Shown here: in pieces, positions 31,040-36,103 of the stretch
Numbering within the stretch: position 1 is the first letter of the stretch
Layout of the letters: each line of letters starts with the position of its first letter
Assembly (NCBI GenBank): GCA_003225295.1
Contig: QHYZ01000050.1
Location: 62,001 to 126,000, forward strand
Length of the DNA stretch: 64,000 nt
Reading direction: 5' to 3'
DNA from: Acidobacteriota bacterium
GTDB taxonomy: Bacteria > Acidobacteriota > Terriglobia > Acidiferrales > UBA7541
The notes under the pieces: model-generated
Told to the model about the DNA's origin: nothing
Database searches by the model: none
Seen by the model: only the letters and a program-made list of their open reading frames with translations
Program-made: the position numbers and the translations under genes

Positions 31040-32473
31040 CTATTTTGTGAACCGTACGGAGTCGAGGATCGAGGAAAACGTCTTGTCGTAACTGTCGTAG
31101 GCGGATTGCGGAGCGACGCAAACGAAATAGACCAAGCCCTCCGGACGCAGAACGGTGACAACCCAGTCCGTTTCCTGACCGCCCGCGGGAGAGGCATTGC
31201 TTAGATAGGTCGAAAGGCCAGGTAGTCCGTTCAGGCGCAAGCGCTCTCCTTGCCGCGTGATCTTCATGCTCGGGTTCGACTTTTGAAGATCATGAATCAC
31301 CTGCTGGGTGGCGCTATTCACGGCGTCTCCATCATGGGGATCGCCCTTGGCCAGCATTACGCCGATGATCAGGCCATACGCGAGGGCGCTATGGCCGCTG
31401 CCGTCATCCACGACGCCGCCTTCGGGGGCAAAGGAAACGCCGCCTCCATTGCTGTCCGGATACCTCTTCCAATTGTCCGGGTACTTGAGCGTGTACGAAC
31501 TCGCCTGATACTCCGAGAAATTGCGGGAAGGCAGCGCTGGGGCAGCGGCGGCACCAGGCGCTGCGGGGACCGGCTTTTTCACCACCGGCAGAGCCAGGAC
31601 TTCGCGCTTGACGGCTTCGAACTCGGCGGAGTCGCGCCGAGCGGCCGGCGGAGCGCCACCGAGCTTCTCGACTTCTTCATCGACGCGCCCGACGCGGTGC
31701 TCCGGATTCGGGTGGTCGGAGAAAAACTCCGGGGGATTTTTCCCCTTGGTCTCCGCTTCGAGCTTTTCGAAAAACTGCGCCATGGCACGGGGATCGTATC
31801 CCGTATCGTAGAGGACCTGTGTGCCCATGACGTCGGCCTGCGATTCGGCTGTTCGCGAATAGCGCAGGAGAACGCCTCCGGCCGTGAAACTGCCCAGTTG
31901 CGTCAGGAGCGCACCGCCAGTGGTGTCTCCGAAAACGGCGCCGAAGATTCCCAAACCCGTCTCGGCCAGCATCGCCTTGGTTGCTTGGTTGGTGCCATGG
32001 CGGAGAGCCACGTGCGACAACTCATGTGCCATCACTCCCGCGAGTTGTGCCTCATTGTCCGCGGCTTCGATCGCGCCGCGGTTCACAAACACAAATCCGC
32101 CGGGCAAGGCAAAGGCGTTGATGGCTTTGTCATTCACGCAATGAAATTCGAACGGGTACTGTACCCCACTCGTGGGCAACTTTTGCGCCAAACGCATGCC
32201 AATTTGTGTCAGGTAAGCATCGACCTTAGGTGCGTTGCAAAGCGCCAACTGCTTTTCAGCATCGGTGGCGGCTCGTTTGCCGAGGTTTATGTCCTCTTGC
32301 GGGGAGAACTTGTTCCAGCCCGGCCTGAGTTGTGTCCGCTGCGCTGATGCGCCAGCAACAAAGAAAAAGCAAAGGCCCAGGAAAAAGCCGGCCGTCCATG
32401 CGTGATGTGTTCGGGGCACGCAGAGCCATCGACGGGAGACAGGCTCCGATTTTGCCCTGCGGATACGCACCAC
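31040..32473 (-). CDS. Secreted M48 family metalloprotease with C-terminal extension
   Basis: 477 residues, GTG start with AGGAGG 3 bases upstream. Signal peptide hydrophobic core AWTAGFFLGLCFFFVAGASA (about 25-44). Peptidase core: FALPGGFVFVNRGAIEAADNE, zinc site HELSH (His150, Glu151, His154) and later DVMGTQVLYDTGYDPRAMAQF with the third ligand. From about 300 a Pro/Ala linker leads to an extra domain (NFSEYQASSYTLKYPDNWKR onward) resembling a lipoprotein-type sandwich. BepA/YfgC-like quality control of outer-membrane proteins is likely but inferred. Convergent with the phosphodiesterase. Confidence 0.9.
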   Translation of the reverse strand: MVRIRRAKSEPVSRRWLCVPRTHHAWTAGFFLGLCFFFVAGASAQRTQLRPGWNKFSPQEDINLGKRAATDAEKQLALCNAPKVDAYLTQIGMRLAQKLPTSGVQYPFEFHCVNDKAINAFALPGGFVFVNRGAIEAADNEAQLAGVMAHELSHVALRHGTNQATKAMLAETGLGIFGAVFGDTTGGALLTQLGSFTAGGVLLRYSRTAESQADVMGTQVLYDTGYDPRAMAQFFEKLEAETKGKNPPEFFSDHPNPEHRVGRVDEEVEKLGGAPPAARRDSAEFEAVKREVLALPVVKKPVPAAPGAAAAPALPSRNFSEYQASSYTLKYPDNWKRYPDSNGGGVSFAPEGGVVDDGSGHSALAYGLIIGVMLAKGDPHDGDAVNSATQQVIHDLQKSNPSMKITRQGERLRLNGLPGLSTYLSNASPAGGQETDWVVTVLRPEGLVYFVCVAPQSAYDSYDKTFSSILDSVRFTK

Positions 32474-32535: not shown

Positions 32536-32571
32536 AGAAAAGAAAAAGCCCGGGCGGTCATCCACCCGGGC
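32536..32571 (-). terminator. Rho-independent terminator after the first AAA+ gene
   Basis: On the minus strand GCCCGGG (32571-32565) pairs with CCCGGGC (32554-32548) around a 10-base loop, followed by TTTTTCTTTTC. Placed 27 bases after the stop of the AAA+ gene at 32598, ahead of the M48 gene. Confidence 0.85.
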
Positions 32572-32597: not shown

Positions 32598-33761
32598 TTA
32601 ACGAGCCGTGCGCGGCGGGGGCTCCGGCGAAAGTGTCACTCCCGGCGCATCCGCGGACTTGCCGCTCCTGGCTGGAGAAGTGCGCGTGGGAACAAAGGGC
32701 TCTGTCTTGCGCGTGGGGATCGTCAGGTTTTCACCCTCGCGGACGAAGGTGAGGCGGTCCTGCTCCTTGTTCCAGTCGATGCAAACTAGGTCGCCAAGGT
32801 GAATCTGCTCGGTTGCCAGCAAGTTCGCCAGTGGATACACCACGTGGCGTTCGATGGCGCGCTTGAGGTGCCGTGCGCCGTAGCGCTGGTCCGTGCCTTC
32901 CTGCAGGAGGAACTCGCGGCCGGCGTCGGTCACGCGGAACAGGAATTGACCCTTGGCGGTTTCCAGAACGCGCTGCTGCACCTGGCCCAGCTCGATTTCG
33001 AGCACCCGCTCAAGCTGCTCACGTCTCAGCGGATGAAACACCACCACTTTATCGAGCCGGTTCATGAATTCCGGTGAAAACTTCCGACGGGCCGCTTCTA
33101 CGGCCGTACGCTCCACTTTTTCGTCCAAGCCGGCGGCCGGCTTGTCCTTCGGCTGAATGAAGCCCATGCCGCCTTCCATGAGTTCAGTAATTTCTCCCCC
33201 GCCGAGGTTCGACGTCAAGAAAATGACTGTCTGCGAGAGGTCCACGCGGCGGTTATCGCCCAGGGTGAGCGTGGCTTTGTCGAGCATGCCGAGCAGCAGT
33301 TGCCACAGCGCATCGCTGGCCTTTTCGATCTCATCGAAGAGCAGGAAGCTCAACTTCAATTTTTCCGTGTGGCTCGCCGCCAAGGCTTCTTGCGTGATTA
33401 GCGGATGGGTCTCGCGATGGCCCAAATAGCCGGGAGGCGAACCAATCAGCTTGGCAATCTCGTGCGAGTGCTGGAACTCCGCGCAATCGACCTTTATGAC
33501 CGCGCGAGCATCCCCAAAAAGGATCTCCGCGGCAGCTTCCACAATGCGCGTCTTTCCCGAGCCGGTTGGACCGAGGAACAGCAGGTTGCCTACCGGGCGG
33601 CCGGGCGAATTCAATCCGGCACAAAACACCTGAAACATGTCCACCAGGGACTGCACACCCTCTTCCTGCCCTACGATCTTTGCTCGCAAGGAAGAGTGAA
33701 AATCACACGTGTCATTGCTGCGGATGGTGGGATCCAGTTGATGGCGGACTGCGGGTTTCAT
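32598..33761 (-). CDS. Single-ring AAA+ ATPase (ClpB/ClpA D2-like), paralogue 1
   Basis: 387 residues: one AAA+ module plus the C-terminal D2-small domain. Walker A GPTGSGKT (64-71), pore-loop GSPPGYLGH with the substrate-gripping Tyr, Walker B LLFDEIEKA, sensor 1 TSNLGGGE, Arg-finger region FMNRLDKVVVFHPL and sensor 2 GARHLKRAIE are all present, so ATPase and threading activity are predicted. There is no Clp-N, no D1 ring, no M-domain and no ClpP-binding IGF/LGF loop, so it is neither a normal ClpB nor a ClpA/C. Most residues in about 330 aligned positions equal the paralogue at 34051-35280. Own upstream region of 289 bases and own terminator indicate separate transcription. C-terminal tail (PPPRTAR) differs. 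Confidence 0.85.
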   Translation of the reverse strand: MKPAVRHQLDPTIRSNDTCDFHSSLRAKIVGQEEGVQSLVDMFQVFCAGLNSPGRPVGNLLFLGPTGSGKTRIVEAAAEILFGDARAVIKVDCAEFQHSHEIAKLIGSPPGYLGHRETHPLITQEALAASHTEKLKLSFLLFDEIEKASDALWQLLLGMLDKATLTLGDNRRVDLSQTVIFLTSNLGGGEITELMEGGMGFIQPKDKPAAGLDEKVERTAVEAARRKFSPEFMNRLDKVVVFHPLRREQLERVLEIELGQVQQRVLETAKGQFLFRVTDAGREFLLQEGTDQRYGARHLKRAIERHVVYPLANLLATEQIHLGDLVCIDWNKEQDRLTFVREGENLTIPTRKTEPFVPTRTSPARSGKSADAPGVTLSPEPPPRTAR

Positions 33762-33942
33762 TTCATCAACCCTTCTTCGCGTCTAGCTCCCCAAACGCGC
33801 AGCGCGTCTCACTTTCGCGCTATCAGGAAACCCTGCATGGGGAATGCCAATCTTATCCTCAGTTTGGACATTCGGAAGATAATGCAAAGTCAACAACATA
33901 CAGGCTTTGCAGTTTTGGAAACTTTCTCAAGCCGTGAGACGG

Positions 33943-33978
33943 TGTTTCATCTGCGCAAAAAGGGAAAGACATGAAACA
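33943..33978. promoter_or_regulatory. Inverted repeat upstream of AAA+ paralogue 1
   Basis: TGTTTCAT (33943-33950) and ATGAAACA (33971-33978), 20 bases apart, are perfect inverted copies in the 289-base gap that precedes the gene starting at 33761. Possible operator; not similar to CIRCE, HAIR or the palindrome upstream of the other AAA+ unit. Confidence 0.35.
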
Positions 33979-34001
33979 GTTTGTGTCATTCGCTGGGCGA
34001 C

Positions 34002-34028
34002 AAAAAGAGGCGCATGGTTCCACGCCTC
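34002..34028 (-). terminator. Rho-independent terminator after the second AAA+ gene
   Basis: Minus strand: GAGGCG (34028-34023), 10-base loop with inner TGG/CCA pairing, CGCCTC (34012-34007), then TTTTTG. It lies 22 bases after the stop at 34051 and separates the two AAA+ transcription units. Confidence 0.8.
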
Positions 34029-34050
34029 AGGAGAAAGTTAAAGTTCTGCT

Positions 34051-35280
34051 TTAAGTATTCGAGCGCTCCTGCTTCTTGCGCCCTTGCAGAGACGGTGATG
34101 GGCCTGCGGCGGGCTGTGCCGCCCGGGACTTCCTGTCTTCAACCGTGGCTTCCTTCGGCATCTCGGCAGGCTTCCCGTCCATCGCCTGGGCTGCGGCGGC
34201 ACCGACGCCCATGGCCCGCTGCGAGGAGGATTGCACGAGCGCTCCCTCCCCTTCGCGAACGAACGTGAGCAAGTCGTGACTCTCGTCCCAATCGATACGC
34301 ACCAAGTCGCCCAGGTTGACTTGATCGGTAGCCAGCAGGTTGGCCAGCGGATAGACGACGTGTCGCTCTATGGCGCGCTTCAGATGCCGGGCACCGTAGC
34401 GCTGGTCCGTGCCTTCCCGCAGAAGAAAGTTGCGTCCGGCCTCTGTTACACGGAAGAGAAACTGCCCTTTGGCGGTATCCAGTACCCGCTGCTGCACCTG
34501 ACCCAGCTCGATATCGAGCACTTCCTGAAGCTGCTCGCGCTGCAACGGGTGGAATACCACAACCTTGTCGAGGCGGTTCATGAATTCCGGTGAAAACTTC
34601 CGCCGTGCCGCTTCCACCGCCGTACGTTCCACCTTCTCGTCCAGGCCGCTGGTAGGTATGTCGGCCGGCTGGACGAAACCCATGCCACCTTGCATGAGCT
34701 CGGCAATCTCACCGCCACCCAGGTTGGAGGTCAAAAAGATGACCGTTTGGGAGAGATCCACCTTACGGTTATCACCCAAGGTCAGCGTGGCCTTGTCCAG
34801 CATTCCCAGCAGCAACTGCCACAGCGCATCGCTGGCCTTTTCGATCTCGTCGAAGAGCAAGAAACTGAGCTTCAGCTTGTCGGTATGGCTGGCCGTCAGG
34901 GTTTCCTGCGTAATCAGCGGATGTGTCTCTCGATGCCCCAGATATCCCGGGGGCGAGCCGATCAGCTTGGCAATCTCATGAGAATGCTGAAATTCCGCGC
35001 AATCAATCTTGATCACCGCACGGGCTTCGCTAAAGAGAATCTCGGCAGCCGCTTCCACAATGCGCGTCTTTCCCGAGCCGGTTGGCCCGAGAAACAGAAG
35101 ATTCCCTACCGGGCGGCCGGGCGAGTTCAATCCGGCGCGAAAGACCTGGTAGAGGTCCACGAGTGCGTGCACACCCTCTTCCTGTCCGACAATTTTTGAT
35201 CGCAGCGCCGCCTGGAAATCGATGGTGTCCGTGCTGCGCTTGCTCGGATCGAGTGGAAGGATATAGTCGCTCATGACCAC
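34051..35280 (-). CDS. Single-ring AAA+ ATPase (ClpB/ClpA D2-like), paralogue 2
   Basis: 409 residues with the same order as paralogue 1: Walker A GPTGSGKT (near 65), pore loop GYLGH, Walker B LLFDEIEKA, Arg-finger FMNRLDKVV, sensor 2 GARHLKR. The C-terminal 60 residues (VEDRKSRAAQPAAGPSPS, KKQERSNT end) are Pro/Ser-rich and unlike paralogue 1. No N-terminal domain, D1 ring or ClpP loop. It starts 3 bases after the stop of the small gene at 35284-35724, so they form one operon: small protein, then AAA+. Role: unfolding or remodelling, target unknown; the small protein could be an adaptor (inference). Confidence 0.85.
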   Translation of the reverse strand: MVMSDYILPLDPSKRSTDTIDFQAALRSKIVGQEEGVHALVDLYQVFRAGLNSPGRPVGNLLFLGPTGSGKTRIVEAAAEILFSEARAVIKIDCAEFQHSHEIAKLIGSPPGYLGHRETHPLITQETLTASHTDKLKLSFLLFDEIEKASDALWQLLLGMLDKATLTLGDNRKVDLSQTVIFLTSNLGGGEIAELMQGGMGFVQPADIPTSGLDEKVERTAVEAARRKFSPEFMNRLDKVVVFHPLQREQLQEVLDIELGQVQQRVLDTAKGQFLFRVTEAGRNFLLREGTDQRYGARHLKRAIERHVVYPLANLLATDQVNLGDLVRIDWDESHDLLTFVREGEGALVQSSSQRAMGVGAAAAQAMDGKPAEMPKEATVEDRKSRAAQPAAGPSPSLQGRKKQERSNT

Positions 35281-35283
35281 CTC

Positions 35284-35724
35284 CTAGCGAGCCCGTGATG
35301 ACGGGTGCGCATTGCTGAATCGCCCGCGTCCACGGCCAAACTGGTCGAGCTTGACCTGAATGGTTGACTGCAAGAGCCGCAATTGCACCAGTAGCTCTCG
35401 TGCCACGACGGGTGATTCGGAAATTCGGAGGAGCGGCGGAAAAACGTCCGCCAGGTCGAGATTGAGGGCTCGAAGAGAGGAAACCAGCTTTTGGACCGCC
35501 GGCGAGTCAGGGTTCGCCAGGTCCACTTGACCGTTTAATTGTTCGCGCAGTGTTTTCCAATCCAGCTCCACGAAGGGATGCTTTTTGGAAACTTCGCGCA
35601 CGAGGTCGTCGGTAATTCGCGCCCGGGCTCCGAGACGGGCCAGATGGAGCTGGCGCACTTTTCCCCCGCGGCGCACGTTGTGCACCAGGTAGAAGGAATT
35701 TCCTTTGCGGCGGACAAAAGCCAC
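35284..35724 (-). CDS. Unrecognised small protein, operon partner of AAA+ paralogue 2
   Basis: 146 residues, no family recognised. N-terminal basic beta-like segment (FVRRKGNSFYLVHNVRRGGK) with HLARLGARARITDDLVREVSKKHPF, then two long helices (about 55-100 and 105-130, QKLVSSLRALNLDLADVFPP and LVQLRLLQSTIQVKLDQF) and a Arg/Gly-rich tail. The N-terminal stretch resembles the start of some transposase-linked proteins, but there is no catalytic core. ATG at 35724 preceded by GAGGTG. First gene of the operon, with a palindromic site 28 bases upstream. Confidence 0.75.
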   Translation of the reverse strand: MAFVRRKGNSFYLVHNVRRGGKVRQLHLARLGARARITDDLVREVSKKHPFVELDWKTLREQLNGQVDLANPDSPAVQKLVSSLRALNLDLADVFPPLLRISESPVVARELLVQLRLLQSTIQVKLDQFGRGRGRFSNAHPSSRAR

Positions 35725-36103
35725 GACATCACCTCAAACTTCCGTTATCCTGTGTAGTGTAACTCCCTTCCACTACACCCTACACTATTAAGATGCACTT
35801 TTTCGGAAAAAGTTACCTCCGAGCAGTGACGCGTCCAGCGTAGTGGGAACTCCGCGCAAAGCTTGATCACTTTTTTTGCTGGGTTTCATCGATGTTTCGC
35901 ATCCTTGTTTCACTGCGCCGTTTCCGTCTTTTCGGCCTCTGTCTGATGGGATGCTTACTGTTCCCCGCTTCCTGAATTGTCGTCGGCATCCAGCTACTGC
36001 ATTAAACCCGGTCGCGGCATTTTTTTCTTGTTCTGGTGGAGAAAAGGAGCCTACCATACACCCGCGAGTTTCTTCCTAATCTCCGCTTGGAGCTTGATTC
36101 AGA
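35725..36103. other. 379-base divergent intergenic region with operator and palindrome
   Basis: Between the minus-strand small gene and the plus-strand alkyltransferase-like gene. It holds the operator above and ACTTTTTC-G-GAAAAAGT (35797-35813), an almost continuous 17-base palindrome that could be a second operator or a terminator. The remaining 290 bases have low-quality ATG frames only (e.g. minus 35788-36057), with no codon bias or motif, which I reject as genes. Confidence 0.6.
35752..35778. promoter_or_regulatory. Palindromic operator candidate ahead of the small gene/AAA+ operon
   Basis: GTGTAGTG (35752-35759), 11 bases, CACTACAC (35771-35778): perfect 8-base inverted repeat, with a further half-site TACACT at 35781-35786. 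It covers the 28-62 bases upstream of the ATG at 35724, where the minus-strand promoter is expected. Not CIRCE (TTAGCACTC), nor HspR/CtsR type, so a different regulator is implied. Confidence 0.6.

Follow-up and report, generated by a model that had tools for sequence, protein, structure and literature searches.

Control of the Clp unfoldases by a repressor encoded in the same operon has been described for CtsR, whose own operon, with clpC as its last gene, is under its repression (PMC5506225); for CtsR to leave the DNA, ClpX is reported to be needed (PMC12634643). On the side of the unfoldase, an LGF loop in the second ring (D2) of ClpC1 is described as docking on ClpP (PMC11005422). The locus treated here lies in a stretch of 64,000 nucleotides from a soil Acidobacteriota bacterium (contig QHYZ01000050.1), referred to throughout as the window, where a gene for a small protein of 146 amino acids is followed by two tandem genes for AAA+ ATPases, ATPase 1 (AAA1) and ATPase 2 (AAA2). 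The small gene and ATPase 1 form an operon that is real, conserved and unusual, and it appears rather probable that autoregulation is the role of the small protein and that the ATPase acts as a single-ring Clp unfoldase of the D2 kind.

The association of the two genes was assessed at 98 places where the small gene occurs (31 in the genus and 67 others, leaving out one full-length place in genome G137 and a second, truncated copy in G172 that stops at a contig end). An ATPase gene lies directly downstream on the same strand at 96 of these, at a distance of 4-131 bases (median 19), and the remaining two (L135 and L186) are contig ends that fall 0 and 72 bases past the small gene. A conserved link to AAA+ genes, set as a check by an earlier note on this DNA made from the sequence alone, is thereby upheld, but its converse is not: many ATPase relatives lack the small gene, which is present at 43 and absent at 32 of the 75 named ATPase loci (one of the 32, L082, begins at a contig edge), and the link is thus one-way. 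The ATPase was found in 104 of 151 genomes of the class at E <= 1e-80, a cut-off set against the genome's own ClpB-like protein at 1.7e-56; its nearest named relatives come from soil Acidobacteriota assemblies, the best being a 97% identical protein in MNIJ01000184. A match to the small protein was recovered in 31 of the 36 genomes searched in the genus and in 94 of the 299 searched in the class (G066 matching residues 1-39 only), and the full-length matches of the class sample fall in three families, f1, f2 and f6; in a sample of the phylum it is matched by 5 of 396 genomes, namely the window's own and four that have the N-terminal domain only. An ATPase tree rooted on the ClpB-like protein, with poor support for the root (0.12), places a clade of 20 lone ATPases between clades linked to the small gene, which suggests that the small gene was lost there.

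Both ATPases are supported by their sequences as specialised single-ring Clp proteins resembling the D2 half of ClpB or ClpC. The earlier note had seen two adjacent, nearly identical ClpB-D2-like ATPases with a pore-loop tyrosine and all nucleotide motifs, and had described them as lacking an N-domain and a D1 ring, all of which is confirmed: the two open reading frames (ORFs) are 77% identical over the full alignment and 81% over the matched part, a Pfam scan of both detects AAA_2 and ClpB_D2-small and neither an N-domain nor D1, and only about 20 residues precede the AAA module. The motifs are nearly invariant in 141 distinct relatives taken from the fetched loci, the Walker A residues (G, P, T, G, K, T), the pore tyrosine, the Walker B Asp-Glu, the sensor-1 asparagine, the arginine of NR (the arginine finger) and the GAR of sensor 2 being present in every one. 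On one point the note was mistaken, as it denied these proteins a ClpP-docking loop. Between sensor 1 and the arginine finger all 141 relatives have an insertion of the form (M/L/Y/F/I)GF, with M (87), L (40), Y (7) or F (4) among the residues in first place, G in 141, and F in 140 with L in one. Both window proteins carry it as GGMGF, and in alignment it shares its columns with an MGF of the genome's ClpC-like protein, while the ClpB-like protein is gapped there. The I/L-G-F/L loop of the ClpC and ClpA D2 ring is in this sense represented, with M or L first in most, and we infer a hexameric unfoldase that probably feeds ClpP.

It is possible, if doubtful, that the ATPase is instead a ClpP-independent disaggregase or remodeller whose MGF loop serves another use. 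Among curated families it comes nearest to ClpB (NCBIfam TIGR03346), with an E of 5.9e-71 but a score well short of the cut-off of 1232 bits; the closest solved chains are likewise ClpB, and on the family profile the genome's ClpB-like protein scores slightly higher than its ClpC-like protein. These affinities have to be set against the GF insertion, which occupies the place of the ClpC loop and is missing from the ClpB-like protein, and against the absence of an M-domain, the usual DnaK contact of ClpB. Matches to the NCBIfam models of ClpB, ClpA and ClpK cover only the last third of each and score well under the cut-offs, and within the ClpB model the match is confined to residues 558-849, one ring rather than D1 and D2 together. 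The possibility that the genes are fragments of a broken clpB, which the earlier note had named as a refutation of its reading, was ruled out: at E <= 0.001 a search of the genome with the ATPase yields four matches and no more, namely ATPase 1, ATPase 2 and the D2 regions of two longer frames of 882 (ClpB-like) and 813 codons (ClpC-like), which are 39% and 38% identical to it, and the tree branch to these full-length relatives is long.

The preferred reading, of an unfoldase under the control of its small partner, leans on the palindrome GTGTAGTG-N11-CACTACAC that the earlier note had pointed out ahead of the small gene. It occurs once in the window, with 0.00 expected, and when up to 2 mismatches are allowed the 8.13-Mb source genome (385 contigs, 96% complete) has one further site. 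It is also widely conserved, as 45 of 47 distinct upstream regions contain the core GTAGTG-N11-CACTAC without a mismatch, and of 68 further regions 66 have arms with at most one mismatch and a spacer of N9-12 (exact in 62). The two exceptions are L144 and L174, and for L174 no more than 73 bases of upstream sequence were at hand. Around the motif the sequences have drifted apart; the flanks carry about 0.2-0.6 bits per position (means of 0.27 and 0.22 with a spacer of 11, and of 0.55 and 0.42 with one of 10), the arms being at 2.0 bits in this comparison by selection of the sites. Within the genus an extended motif, with at most one mismatch allowed, is found exactly once in 31 of 36 genomes, at a position that in every case lies ahead of the small gene as judged by coordinates; the five genomes that lack the motif are the five that lack the gene, and a backwards control gave one match. 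A shorter motif yields one or two extra sites in 3 of the 36 genomes and its backwards control one each in 6, so that no wider regulon is visible. Among 29 lone-ATPase loci a single operator-type site was detected, with one mismatch and 2 kb past the gene.

The putative operator also appears to coincide with a promoter. The sequence TTGACR-N16-18-TACACT is present in 20 of the 47 distinct upstream regions with its -10-like hexamer entering the right arm, and in the f6 family a -10-like sequence likewise lies inside the operator. The idea that the palindrome acts as an RNA hairpin was ruled out because of this overlap, as the left arm would then not be transcribed. In some f6-family genomes (L163, L167, L169, L170) two operator-like inverted repeats lie upstream of the small gene.

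The small protein, unrecognised in the earlier note, is not convincingly matched in any database searched. No Pfam or NCBIfam family was detected at E up to 1, PHROGs gave no help, and a search of PDB sequences gave nothing useful; a Pfam scan of 39 relatives returned DUF5543 in 11 (best E 1.1e-4), DUF7104 in 7 (best 0.0057) and no CtsR. The protein has an N-terminal domain (residues 1-64) of three beta strands and two helices, followed by a helical C-terminal part. The N-domain is modelled as a three-stranded antiparallel sheet with two helices at a mean predicted local distance difference test score (pLDDT) of 91.8, the mean for the whole protein being 67.5. With the whole model Foldseek returned nothing at E <= 0.001 and VIA only common helical-hairpin rows (best Z 8.1), and the N-domain model found nothing in BFVD at E <= 0.001. 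A mobile or plasmid origin of the small gene was ruled out by the conserved neighbours and by the lack of a plasmid match or a viral-contig relative (47 pattern matches), and a similarity to the start of IS1634-type transposases was not supported on follow-up.

The N-domain by itself is shared by four proteins outside the small-protein family and by one more, fused to tetratricopeptide repeats (TPR), from a search of the phylum. All three TPR-fused proteins of G311, G412 and G522, from three other acidobacterial families, are preceded by GTTGTG-N17/18-CACAAC, 41 to 73 bases before the start; in 5540 background windows GTTGTG repeats were met in four, all within two TPR loci included there. The N-domain protein of G066, which has 75 amino acids, is preceded by two direct copies of GTGTAGTGCCTAACC at 5 and 35 bases upstream of the start, 30 apart, and two copies of GTGTAGTG were seen in this upstream region and at no other place among 44,694 overlapping windows. 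GTwGTG-type repeats thus accompany the N-domain in four of the five outgroup cases, and because such repeats stand ahead of the domain's own gene in three architectures, the small protein is read as the regulator of the operon and not as an adaptor. Of the specialised unfoldase or disaggregase with its own adaptor and own regulator that had been proposed in the earlier note, the specialised single-ring ATPase stands, while the adaptor is re-read as the regulator. The TPR-fused loci are at L242:1504, L243:1346 and L244 (minus strand), L243 having a second GTTGTG/CACAAC pair, and the gene for the 75-residue protein (L155:3125-3401) is near a resolvase-like gene.

We regard as rather unlikely a role of the small protein as adaptor or substrate receptor, in which it would replace the missing N-domain in trans while an unlinked transcription factor reads the operator. 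Such a role would suit the tight linkage of the gene to an ATPase with so few residues before its AAA module, and the retention of the operator where the small gene has been lost, but the N-domain is also found TPR-fused or alone with no ATPase neighbour detected, still with its GTwGTG repeats, and many ATPase relatives manage without the small protein. It would, moreover, be unusual for an unlinked factor to be dedicated to one site in each genome.

Several observations weigh against autoregulation by the small protein. The resemblance of its N-domain to arm-type integrase DNA-binding domains is weak (Foldseek E 1.2 and 1.4, VIA Z 2.6-2.9, for 3jtz, 3rmp and 3ju0), these rows being tied with unrelated ones and none standing out. 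The related N-domain of a 196-residue protein in G553 has no such repeat upstream, the loci L073/L144, which are one contig, are without the operator, and in the window itself the -35 element is poor and a promoter scan detected no promoter there. Two genomes without the small gene keep the operator before ATPase 1, G022 with intact arms at N10 spacing and G023 with one arm mismatch, ATPase 1 sitting directly behind the old leader in both; their upstream regions are identical in 147 of 212 alignment columns. An autorepressor model does not explain this retention unless the loss of the small gene was recent. In G007 and G009, which have a single ATPase of the second type, the operator is absent, and G005 (86% complete) has no ATPase. 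The losses in these five genomes (G005, G007, G009, G022 and G023) imply that the joint absence of gene and operator is partly the simple deletion of neighbouring DNA. G023 also has four ATPase copies at three places (L231, L238, L240, L241).

The earlier note further held that the duplicated versions are expressed separately, and this is supported by what lies upstream of ATPase 2, which appears to have a sigma-54-type promoter and a palindrome of its own. In the tree, the ATPase 1 clade (27) joins that of ATPase 2 plus three lone copies (30) at a support of 0.99, the clades themselves having 0.91 and 0.52, from which one duplication at the base of the genus follows. The sequences upstream of 27 second copies and of L236 make up 28 distinct regions; TGGCA-N7-TGC is present in 23 of them (shuffles 0.1), and the inverted repeat GTCTCA-N5-TGAGAC, or something close to it, lies about 91 bases farther from the gene, also in 23 (shuffles 0.0). 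As the sigma-54 pattern was set on sequences already viewed, the 23 of 28 is a description, and the other loci serve as the comparison: promoter and palindrome were found at 1 and 0 of 60 single small-linked ATPases and at 2 and 1 of 29 lone ATPases. A longer form of the palindrome occurs once in each of 18 of the 36 genus genomes (backwards control in three), its coordinates in all of them placing it immediately beyond ATPase 1 or, for G009, ahead of the single ATPase of that genome. The source genome has a sigma-54 family protein, and the -24/-12 elements with an upstream palindrome are those of a candidate sigma-54-dependent promoter. That the second copy is merely a redundant duplicate with no separate function is very improbable, for although the copies are alike and some genomes hold only one ATPase or none, a single genus-wide duplication has been followed by retention of both copies in most tandem loci and of a different promoter class for copy 2, the weak support for the copy-2 clade notwithstanding.

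Table 1. Features of the small gene-ATPase locus in the window.
Feature	Position	Strand	Basis or remark
Putative operator GTGTAGTG-N11-CACTACAC	35752-35778	.	Conserved core GTAGTG-N11-CACTAC at 35754-35776
TACACT, -10-like hexamer within right operator arm	35756-35761	-	Upstream-region comparison
Small protein gene, 146 amino acids	35284-35724	-	ORF call; proposed DNA-binding autorepressor
ATPase 1 (AAA1), 407 amino acids from ATG at 35274	34051-35274	-	GYLG pore loop and GGMGF loop
Terminator-like hairpin 3' of AAA1	34007-34028	-	Hairpin scan
Palindromic enhancer-like block upstream of AAA2	33917-33951	-	Core GTCTCACGGCTTGAGA at 33925-33940
Sigma-54-type -24/-12 promoter of AAA2, TTGGCATTCCCCATGC (GG-N10-GC)	33835-33850	-	Pattern comparison
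ATPase 2 (AAA2), 387 amino acids, AAA1 paralogue with different C-terminal tail	32598-33761	-	ORF, Pfam, alignment
Terminator-like hairpin 3' of AAA2	32548-32571	-	Hairpin scan

The order on the minus strand is small gene, AAA1, hairpin, AAA2, hairpin and then a gene for an M48 peptidase (Table 1). The hairpin scan is weak alone (13 sites in a 5.2-kb stretch, 6.7 in shuffles), and its top two rows are the hairpins just past the stop codons of AAA1 and AAA2, which agrees with the terminator that the earlier note had assigned to each unit. The note had also placed the small gene 3 bases ahead of the ATPase; the adjacency holds, but the likely start of AAA1 is the ATG behind AGGAGG, 9 bases past the small-gene stop, and the GTG at 35280, 3 bases past that stop, overlaps the AGGAGG (the frame from this alternative start, 34051-35280(-), would encode 409 residues). 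Rfam and tRNA scans of the window gave no match. The neighbourhood IlvE-ABC-ABC-MGMT-like-(small-ATPase(s))-M48 was found repeatedly across the genus and family, and as IlvE or M48 flank several lone ATPases too, lone and paired genes appear to share an ancestral locus. The M48 gene (31040-32473(-)) encodes an apparent signal peptide, as judged by eye, and lies 3' of the ATPases in many loci, lone ones included. Other lone ATPases were seen behind a gene whose translation resembles, by eye, a sigma-54 activator (L087:3441-5046) and directly behind a 121-residue protein that looks STAS-like (L086:4502-4867).

A scheme can be proposed in which the small gene and ATPase 1 constitute an autoregulated operon. 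Through its N-terminal beta domain the 146-residue protein would bind the two GTAGTG half-sites, placed on or to either side of the promoter's -10 region, and would repress the operon. In the weakest step, drawn by analogy, the unfoldase, or a shortage of free unfoldase during protein stress, would remove or degrade the repressor, such that a shortfall in unfolding capacity would induce the operon, in the manner of CtsR with ClpC/ClpX. After the duplication at the base of the genus, ATPase 2 would have left the control of the small protein, to be expressed from its sigma-54-type promoter with the upstream palindrome serving a putative activator. The broader proposition is evenly balanced: that the small protein founds a new family of beta-sheet regulators in which the N-domain recognises GTwGTG half-sites and governs the gene that encodes it, in three architectures (helical-tailed and beside a Clp ATPase, TPR-fused, and alone), here coupled to a ClpP-docking, single-ring, D2-only unfoldase as a proteolysis-sensing switch of an origin independent of CtsR, with the duplicate ATPase under sigma-54.

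A literature search, with subscription papers and preprints outside its scope, found nothing on D2-only Clp ATPases of Acidobacteria or on sigma-54 and Clp in this group, nor was the latter subject met in passages of PMC12316311. If the scheme is correct, the locus would offer a minimal ClpP-feeding machine without an N-domain and first ring, helping to ask what those parts do, a second and unrelated answer to the need, served by CtsR, to ration Clp capacity, a new family of DNA-binding domains whose recognition code is predicted, and, in a phylum that has seen little regulatory work, a pair of paralogous unfoldases of which one is under sigma-70-type and the other under sigma-54-type control.

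Among known systems, the ctsR-mcsA-mcsB-clpC operon of Bacillus subtilis would be the nearest analogue of the proposed operon, having the gene of a small DNA-binding repressor first, a Clp ATPase last and control by its own product, with an action of Clp proteins back on that repressor (PMC5506225, PMC12634643). The likeness would not extend to the parts, as the small protein matches CtsR in neither Pfam nor NCBIfam, CtsR is described as reading a direct heptanucleotide repeat (PMC5506225) where the operator here is an inverted repeat, GTAGTG-N10/11-CACTAC, and the operon lacks mcsA and mcsB and encodes a one-ring ATPase. ClpB/Hsp104 provides the best sequence match to the AAA module, yet the ATPase is without the N-domain, D1 and M-domain and has a loop that ClpB lacks. 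With ClpC and ClpA it shares a D2-type module and a GF loop at the ClpP-docking place, and it differs in having, according to Pfam, neither an N-domain nor a D1 ring. With ClpX both window proteins have in common a single AAA ring and a GF loop, and the class 2 of Clp ATPases as PMC11005422 uses the term, but they score 26 and 24.5 bits on the ClpX model (cut-off 359), outside that sequence family, and Pfam detects no zinc-binding N-domain. Human CLPB (Skd3), finally, which the ATPase matches at E 1e-28 to 1e-29, likewise has a D2-type AAA module as its sole ring, but joined to an ankyrin N-domain (PMC9934407) that has no counterpart in the acidobacterial ATPase.

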